From positions 110,500 through 174,499 of the IMG/VR virus record IMGVR_UViG_3300042308_000168: DNA of 64,000 bases; one strand, 5' to 3'. The notes beneath the pieces were generated by a model. The model searched no databases. It saw only the letters and a program-made list of their open reading frames with translations, and was not told where the DNA came from. Position 1 is the stretch's first letter. Each line of letters begins with the position of its first letter. The translations under genes and the position numbers were made by a program. The DNA is from a virus. Below are positions 29,933 through 30,703 of the stretch, piece by piece.

Positions 29933-30703
29933 ATGAGCGTTGTAAATCAATCGGCGAAAGCCGTGGCTACCGGCGTTAATGAGGTCGTTGACCTTAGGGG
30001 TATGTGGATCGGCCTAGCCCTTCTAAATACCTTTTATCTAATAGTCCGTATTTATGAACAAGTATATGGTTGGCGTGCCGGCCTTGACTCGTTCGCACCA
30101 GAGTTCCAGACATACTGGATGAGTATCCTCTGGACAGAAATTCCACTAGAATTGGTTTCAGGTCTTGCACTAGCAGGTTACCTATGGAAGACAAGAGACC
30201 GTGACCTCGCAAGCCTCTCACCTCGTGAAGAAATGCGTCGTCTAACTGTATTAGTTCAGTGGTTGGTTGTTTATGCTGTTGCTATCTATTGGGGTGCAAG
30301 TTTCTTCACCGAACAAGATGGTACCTGGCATATGACAGTCATTCGTGATACCGACTTCACTCCGTCACATATCATTGAGTTCTACATGAGTTATCCAATC
30401 TATTCAATCATCGCTGTTGGTGCGTTCTTCTATGCGAAGACCCGTATTCCTTACTTCGCACAGGGATATAGCCTTGCGTTCCTGATTGTTGCTATTGGTC
30501 CATTCATGATTATTCCAAACGTTGGGCTCAATGAGTGGGGTCATACATTCTGGTTTATGGAAGAGCTATTTGTGGCACCGCTACATTGGGGCTTCGTATT
30601 CTTTGGATGGATGGCACTAGGTGTCTTTGGTGTTGTGCTACAGATCCTAGGACGTGTTCATTCTCTAGTTGGTAAGGAAGGCGTTGCTCTCCTAACCGAG
30701 TAA
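29933..30703 (+). CDS. pmoC: particulate methane monooxygenase subunit C
   Basis: 256 aa, the normal length of PmoC/AmoC. Five to six membrane helices. [20 protein letters not shown] carries the three metal ligands of PmoC: Asp129, His133 and His146 here, with the D-x3-H-x12-H spacing of Methylococcus Asp156, His160 and His173. [20 protein letters not shown] and [12 protein letters not shown] are also highly conserved. PmoC is the membrane subunit that, with PmoA and PmoB, oxidises methane to methanol (AmoC acts likewise on ammonia). No pmoA or pmoB is present, so it would act by joining host subunits. It has its own leader and a strong terminator and stands alone. Confidence 0.97.
   Translation: [256 protein letters not shown]

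Follow-up and report, generated by a model that had tools for sequence, protein, structure and literature searches.

A stand-alone pmoC behind a candidate late promoter in a T4-like phage with a Methylocystis-type gene, and intron-split pmoC in related phages

Introduction

Phages that carry pmoC are already in print, among them the complete Lake_Mendota_pmoC-phage_1 (LM_1), of 174,291 bp (Chen et al. 2020, PMC7674155, Table 1), which bears out the original prediction made for the locus described here, namely that the gene as such is not new. In other pmoC-phages, from Lake Rotsee, pmoC is reported to be co-expressed with structural genes, the smaller phages of that lake being described as probably inactive (PMC7674155). 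Thaumarchaeal viruses that carry amoC, cited in the same paper, likewise hold the C subunit only, but differ from the phage considered here in that both hosts and viruses are archaeal, and they are likened to it by description only. On the host side, a monocistronic pmoC together with ftsH occurs in Methylocystis SC2 and Rockwell (PMC3794950). Finally, the psbA gene of cyanophage S-PM2 is described with a group I intron and a neighbouring homing endonuclease, F-CphI, its splicing being reportedly light-responsive (PMC5931967).

The locus analysed here lies in the final 64 kb of a 174,499-base IMG/VR virus record, and this stretch of 64,000 nt is called the window throughout. A 208-base overlap between its two ends (4 mismatches) reduces the record to 174,291 bp, equal in length to LM_1; GC content is 41.8% in the window versus about 41% for LM_1, and an acyl-CoA dehydrogenase gene lies near pmoC in both (PMC7674155). 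On length, GC and acyl-CoA dehydrogenase, the record is very probably the published LM_1 genome. As in LM_1 and the other freshwater lake pmoC-phages described (PMC7674155), a stand-alone, Methylocystis-type pmoC with its ligands kept is found in a T4-like myovirus. ARAGORN finds 25 tRNA genes in the window, most of them in one cluster (44102-48693), against the 21 tabulated for LM_1 (PMC7674155).

The explanation that we favour, and hold to be fairly probable as a whole, is that of a working, late PmoC of a T4-like Methylocystis phage, acquired once and kept by selection. The phage lineage would have taken pmoC once, long ago, from a relative of Methylocystis, and would have retained it under strong purifying selection; transcription would start from the octamer class that drives the tail and head genes of the phage, and the mRNA would begin with a stable hairpin leader and end at a pre-existing terminator. 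The phage PmoC would then enter the host membrane, join the host PmoA and PmoB, and keep the methane enzyme's copper sites supplied during virion formation. As far as literature searches go, the evidence on the pmoC promoter and leader, and the intron-bearing, endonuclease-flanked alleles of related phages, look new: a text search of the main text of PMC7674155 finds mention of neither a promoter nor an intron, and group I introns in pmoC or methane monooxygenase genes were not found in print in the open-access literature (others may exist).

The pmoC gene and its product

The features discussed below are as follows, in window coordinates.

13926..14468, plus strand: hsp20 of the window phage, not adjacent to pmoC here, adjacent in the other alpha lineage
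29784..30731, plus strand: segment with promoter, leader and pmoC, with 63 bp instead in the syntenic sister contig L365
29852..29871, plus strand: hairpin 1 (AGTAGTC/GACTGCT), overlapping the octamer and covarying in seven phages
29869..29876, plus strand: GCTAAATA, octamer and candidate late promoter, at -64 from the pmoC ATG; ACTAAATA in six relatives
29880..29910, plus strand: hairpin 2 (GACCGGGT/ACCCGGTC; alternative CCGGG/CCCGG), with leader covariation
29890..29894, plus strand: CCTAT, complement of ATAGG (29920-29924) in the ribosome-binding region
29922..29926, plus strand: ribosome-binding site AGGAG
29933..30703, plus strand: pmoC of Methylocystis (alphaproteobacterial) type, from profiles PF04896 and TIGR03078, the match to 3rfr and the ligand motifs
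30728..30752, plus strand: intrinsic terminator of ten pairs and a T run, also in L365
30759..30787, plus strand: sigma-70-type promoter (TTGACA-17-TATACT) belonging to the following gene, kept in L365

The open reading frame at 29933..30703 starts with ATG behind an AGGAG and encodes 256 aa, and by every test applied its product is PmoC: it matches PF04896 at 364.7 bits (E 2.7e-109; curated cut-off 26.7) and NCBIfam TIGR03078 at 340.4 bits (cut-off 280.6), and among solved chains its nearest phmmer match is PmoC, with 3rfr at 516 bits. The full-length protein and the three ligands claimed at the outset are all there, the copper-ligand motif D129-x3-H133-x12-H146 being complete. The protein also holds a further motif, N200-x3-H204-x13-H218, absent from the original list, which we take to be the second copper site. 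Ligand loss, looked for in related phages, was not seen: both motifs are kept in 80/80 related viral loci (80 of the 117 found in a first scan), and the ten split copies examined are split by introns. Families of pmoA and pmoB had no match in the whole record, in a search whose controls also matched nowhere, which makes it a weak test.

A phylogeny of 126 PmoC proteins unites the 33 alpha-type phage sequences, including that of the window, in a single clade (SH-aLRT 90), the sister of which is a Methylocystis sequence (SH-aLRT 96); this is a quick tree, with hosts sampled at one genome per species and only the best 80 loci included. The phylogeny proposed earlier as a check thus places the window copy inside Methylocystis PmoC, and not outside the functional clades. 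CRISPR spacers, also proposed, gave no such pointer, as no spacer-like match stood out between 20 kb of phage sequence and 20 methanotroph genomes, where nearly all matches came from the ftsH stretch. Among phage pmoC copies, the median dN/dS is 0.069 (299 usable pairs), which corresponds to strong purifying selection, and dS is saturated between phage and host pmoC. These two results, together with the ligands kept in 80/80 loci, indicate from sequence comparison that pmoC is old in phages and has been retained for its protein.

We infer that phage PmoC functions in methane oxidation, and it presumably assembles with the host subunits and affects the oxidation itself. Upkeep of methane oxidation during virion production, as put forward in the original prediction, is plausible, and pmoC-phages may alter methane release from lakes.

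FtsH and HSP20 as possible partners of PmoC

Why do these phages carry only pmoC? The link with FtsH offers a concrete hypothesis. A role in quality control or signalling has been proposed for the stand-alone pmoC of hosts and, applied to the phage, it would make the extra PmoC a replacement for damaged PmoC degraded by FtsH, or a signal of the state of pMMO. We consider this unlikely as the main account; it overlaps with the late, working PmoC favoured here, and does not exclude it. In its favour, the host stand-alone pmoC can adjoin ftsH, as printed for SC2 and Rockwell (PMC3794950), and as also found here in L086, L091, L089 and L106. The phage itself encodes a full-length FtsH outside the window (G000 106510-108294, L163:16011-17795; TIGR01241 811.6 bits), which falls in the class of host FtsH to which the pmoC-linked copies belong, and not with housekeeping FtsH, and whose gene lies 34 nt after an octamer, TATAAATA, of the late-type class discussed below. 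The arrangement resembles that of Methylocystis SC2 and Rockwell (PMC3794950) in pairing a stand-alone pmoC with an FtsH, the host pmoC-linked FtsH copies examined here being of the phage's class, but differs in that a long distance separates ftsH from pmoC in the phage and that both genes have phage-type promoters. In other lineages, hsp20 follows pmoC within 300 nt in 36/100 loci, and ftsH within 2.1 kb in 14/100. Against this, 13 ftsH-bearing phage records, one of them of 164 kb, are without pmoC, while ftsH is present in 11 of 24 pmoC records and none was seen in the other 13 (some of these records are incomplete), and hsp20 is common in T4-like cyanophages. A strict coupling of pmoC and ftsH was rejected, as ftsH is present in records without pmoC.

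By analogy with the D1 (psbA) cycle of cyanophages, phage pmoC might also be one half of a viral repair cycle of the methane enzyme, made up of PmoC supplied late in infection, the chaperone HSP20 and the membrane protease FtsH, the last of a class that can adjoin the stand-alone pmoC of hosts. This idea is possible though tentative; if true, it would answer why phages carry the C subunit only, and the gamma-type pmoC of related phages would then be a site where group I introns and endonucleases home, with PmoC output also depending on splicing.

A candidate late promoter and a structured leader

Every octamer was ranked by its excess upstream of the record's 229 predicted genes. First comes ACTAAATA, with 9 of its 15 copies upstream of genes (uncorrected p 1.9e-8), and the top three also include CTAAATAA, which overlaps it, and TATAAATA (8/12 copies upstream, uncorrected p 3.8e-8). 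Intergenic copies of ACTAAATA lie 36-53 nt 5' of genes for tail fibre, tail sheath and head scaffold and, in the case of SSB, 104 nt 5' of the gene, and GATAAATA is found upstream of the portal gene. There are exceptions: the gene for DNA polymerase has TCTAAATA upstream, and that for the major head protein, which sits after the scaffold gene, is without an octamer of its own.

The late-like octamer that had been claimed upstream of pmoC has a good candidate in GCTAAATA at 29869-29876, of a class enriched before structural genes; as in T4-type late genes, it stands a short way upstream, at -64, and the same octamer also occurs 36 nt 5' of the baseplate wedge gene. Another candidate, ATAAAATA at 29915, was rejected as a late promoter: it lies 18 nt from the ATG, which leaves too little room, as transcription starting 6 nt after the octamer would begin beyond AGGAG. 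The six closest leaders have ACTAAATA as the octamer before pmoC, and the other alpha lineage has TATAAATA. More widely, N[AC]TAAATA is found within 150 nt in 47/58 distinct leaders of phage pmoC and is absent in 11, against a background of 733/11,400 random stretches of the same loci (6.4%); it occurs in 0/29 host pmoC leaders, a result that is partly a composition effect because host leaders are GC-rich. The late timing suggested earlier is in this way supported by sequence, through an octamer class that appears to be the phage's own late-type motif, and fits the co-expression with structural genes reported for the Lake Rotsee pmoC-phages (PMC7674155); late control of pmoC, as part of the whole explanation favoured here, is fairly probable.

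Could pmoC instead not be specifically late, being transcribed by read-through or from a weak host-type promoter, with the octamer a chance match? GCTAAATA is a weaker variant, modestly enriched in this genome (4/11 copies upstream of genes, uncorrected p 2e-3), and in the other alpha lineage a -35-like TTGAC lies about 17 nt before TATAAATA, so that this promoter could act early too. We nevertheless find this distinctly unlikely, as seven divergent relatives hold the octamer at a near-equal spacing, six in its top-ranked form, and its class recurs in unrelated leaders far over background, while a scan for the sigma-70 consensus on the plus strand gave no site directly upstream of pmoC. Under late control, the start and timing of pmoC transcription in the window phage are predicted from the octamer; the octamer and the leader allow PmoC timing to be tested directly in a single infected culture.

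The competing hairpins claimed upstream were found at 29852-29871 and 29880-29910, with two-sided compensating changes in relatives: across seven phages, five pairs of the leader structure are changed on both sides with pairing kept, a level matched by 3/500 shuffles and far above that of any slid version. At the equivalent place, the other alpha lineage carries a structured leader of another kind. Hairpin 1 overlaps the octamer, and would therefore form only in transcripts begun further upstream, while hairpin 2 would fall at the very 5' end of the putative late transcript or close to it; our reading is that such a 5'-terminal hairpin may stabilise the late pmoC mRNA. The CCTAT of the loop may possibly sequester the ribosome-binding site, a pairing for which the seven phages compared gave no covariation.

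Insertion site, terminator and neighbouring genes

The sister contig L365 is collinear with the window phage at about 70-97% identity and is without pmoC, which counts against the explanation favoured here. It has probably lost pmoC, since more distant relatives hold the gene at the same place. The unit had been described as insulated, by signals upstream and a strong terminator downstream. The upstream part stands, with a candidate promoter octamer and a leader before pmoC, and the terminator at 30728-30752 does have ten pairs and a T run; it is, however, not specific to pmoC, and was rejected as the gene's own because a terminator at the same place in pmoC-less L365 makes it ancestral to the site. 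One might suspect, from the published pmoC-phage scaffolds that often broke at pmoC (PMC7674155), that the gene is a passenger in decay or that assembly joined host pmoC to phage DNA; this is extremely improbable and refuted for practical purposes by the identical protein and leader in two further IMG/VR contigs (L002 and L003), the low dN/dS with dS to host pmoC saturated, and flanks collinear with the pmoC-less sister.

Nearby, the acyl-CoA dehydrogenase is intact (region 25371-27074 and 27029-28666), and up to 57-59% identical to Methylocystis proteins. At the 3' end of its gene stand an HNH endonuclease and about 1.5 kb, and, as seen by comparison with L365 and L014, the end segment of the dehydrogenase gene is repeated at 28566-28658, which looks like an endonuclease-driven insertion; the HNH gene is 2.1 kb from pmoC. 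A carbamoyltransferase-like protein is encoded at 50995-52542.

Intron-split pmoC in gamma-type relatives

The pmoC of the window is uninterrupted and holds no group I intron. By contrast with this intact allele, four fragmented and one partial pmoC are described among published pmoC-phages (PMC7674155), and 10 of about 102 distinct pmoC-bearing viral contigs in our set, all gamma-type, have pmoC interrupted by inserts of 249-258 nt (L255, L242, L264, L262, L265, L268, L270, L271, L274 and L259; pmoC loci at 937-2723 in L255, which is 3300047476_001516, 5001-6278 in L242 and 5001-6030 in L264). Eight introns score above the Rfam group I intron threshold in L168, L191, L192 and L198, those of L198 being seen again in L199, as does one intron in L270 and L271, with scores of up to 104.7 bits. 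The inserts of L259, L268 and L274 were missed by Rfam even at a relaxed threshold; those of L268 and L274 are 95% and that of L259 77-79% identical to the L270 family (Rfam 69.2 bits), and P1/P10 pairing likewise supports them as introns.

When 11 distinct introns were modelled, the 5' site followed a T in 11/11 and the final base was G in 10/11. The internal guides form 92 pairs in total with both exons at the true sites, against at most 19 once the two sites are shifted by as much as six bases. Modelled splicing yields proteins of 250-259 aa with the frame and both ligand motifs restored, whereas the unspliced frames stop early. On this modelling, the ten "broken" gamma-type pmoC are best described as group I intron-split genes and not as ligand losses. 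The introns turn apparent pmoC pseudogenes into intact genes, and the model predicts splice junctions that are expected in existing lake metatranscriptomes.

Seven insertion sites were found, six of them inside or bordering one stretch of 27 residues of the protein. The pmoC of 3300047476_001516 holds four introns, separated by exons of 13, 23 and 30 nt, and two of its sites are common to 3300034064_001058, from another metagenome; its intron at 1540-1790 ends in A instead of the usual G, the site being supported by guide pairing and frame. Five group I introns were counted across nine phage records (about 1.35 Mb), four of them inside pmoC; the fifth, in L381 (G010 90180-90373), lies outside it, with no evident protein gene. 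Group I introns were found in 0/11 gammaproteobacterial methanotroph genomes. Two bacterial loci, L149 and L151, were rejected as intron-split pmoC, and are tandem pmoC copies. In L191, a second, diverged C-terminal piece of pmoC (6272-6385) lies about 1.1 kb behind the split gene, near a short direct repeat.

Homing endonucleases beside split pmoC

A homing-endonuclease gene lies within 200 nt of pmoC in nine of the ten intron contigs, L259 being without one. It is on the reverse strand, 21-46 nt past pmoC in eight of the ten and 196 nt before pmoC in the contig whose intron is near the 5' end. The genes beside split pmoC match PHROG homing endonucleases, the match in L264 being weak (E 0.0023).

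At the level of published description, the layout is like that of psbA and F-CphI of S-PM2 (PMC5931967): in both, a T4-like phage carries a gene of host energy metabolism, with group I introns and a neighbouring free-standing endonuclease. It is unlike S-PM2 psbA (PMC5931967) in that the window pmoC is intronless, and that the gamma-type alleles have up to four introns and several endonuclease types.

Among 90 intronless loci, surveyed with seven query endonucleases and including some that end soon after pmoC, only L277 and L305 have an endonuclease within 250 nt. In these two (1326-2072 and 5792-6541, respectively), the endonuclease neighbouring the intronless pmoC is 53% identical to that of L255, and they may possibly represent an intermediate state.
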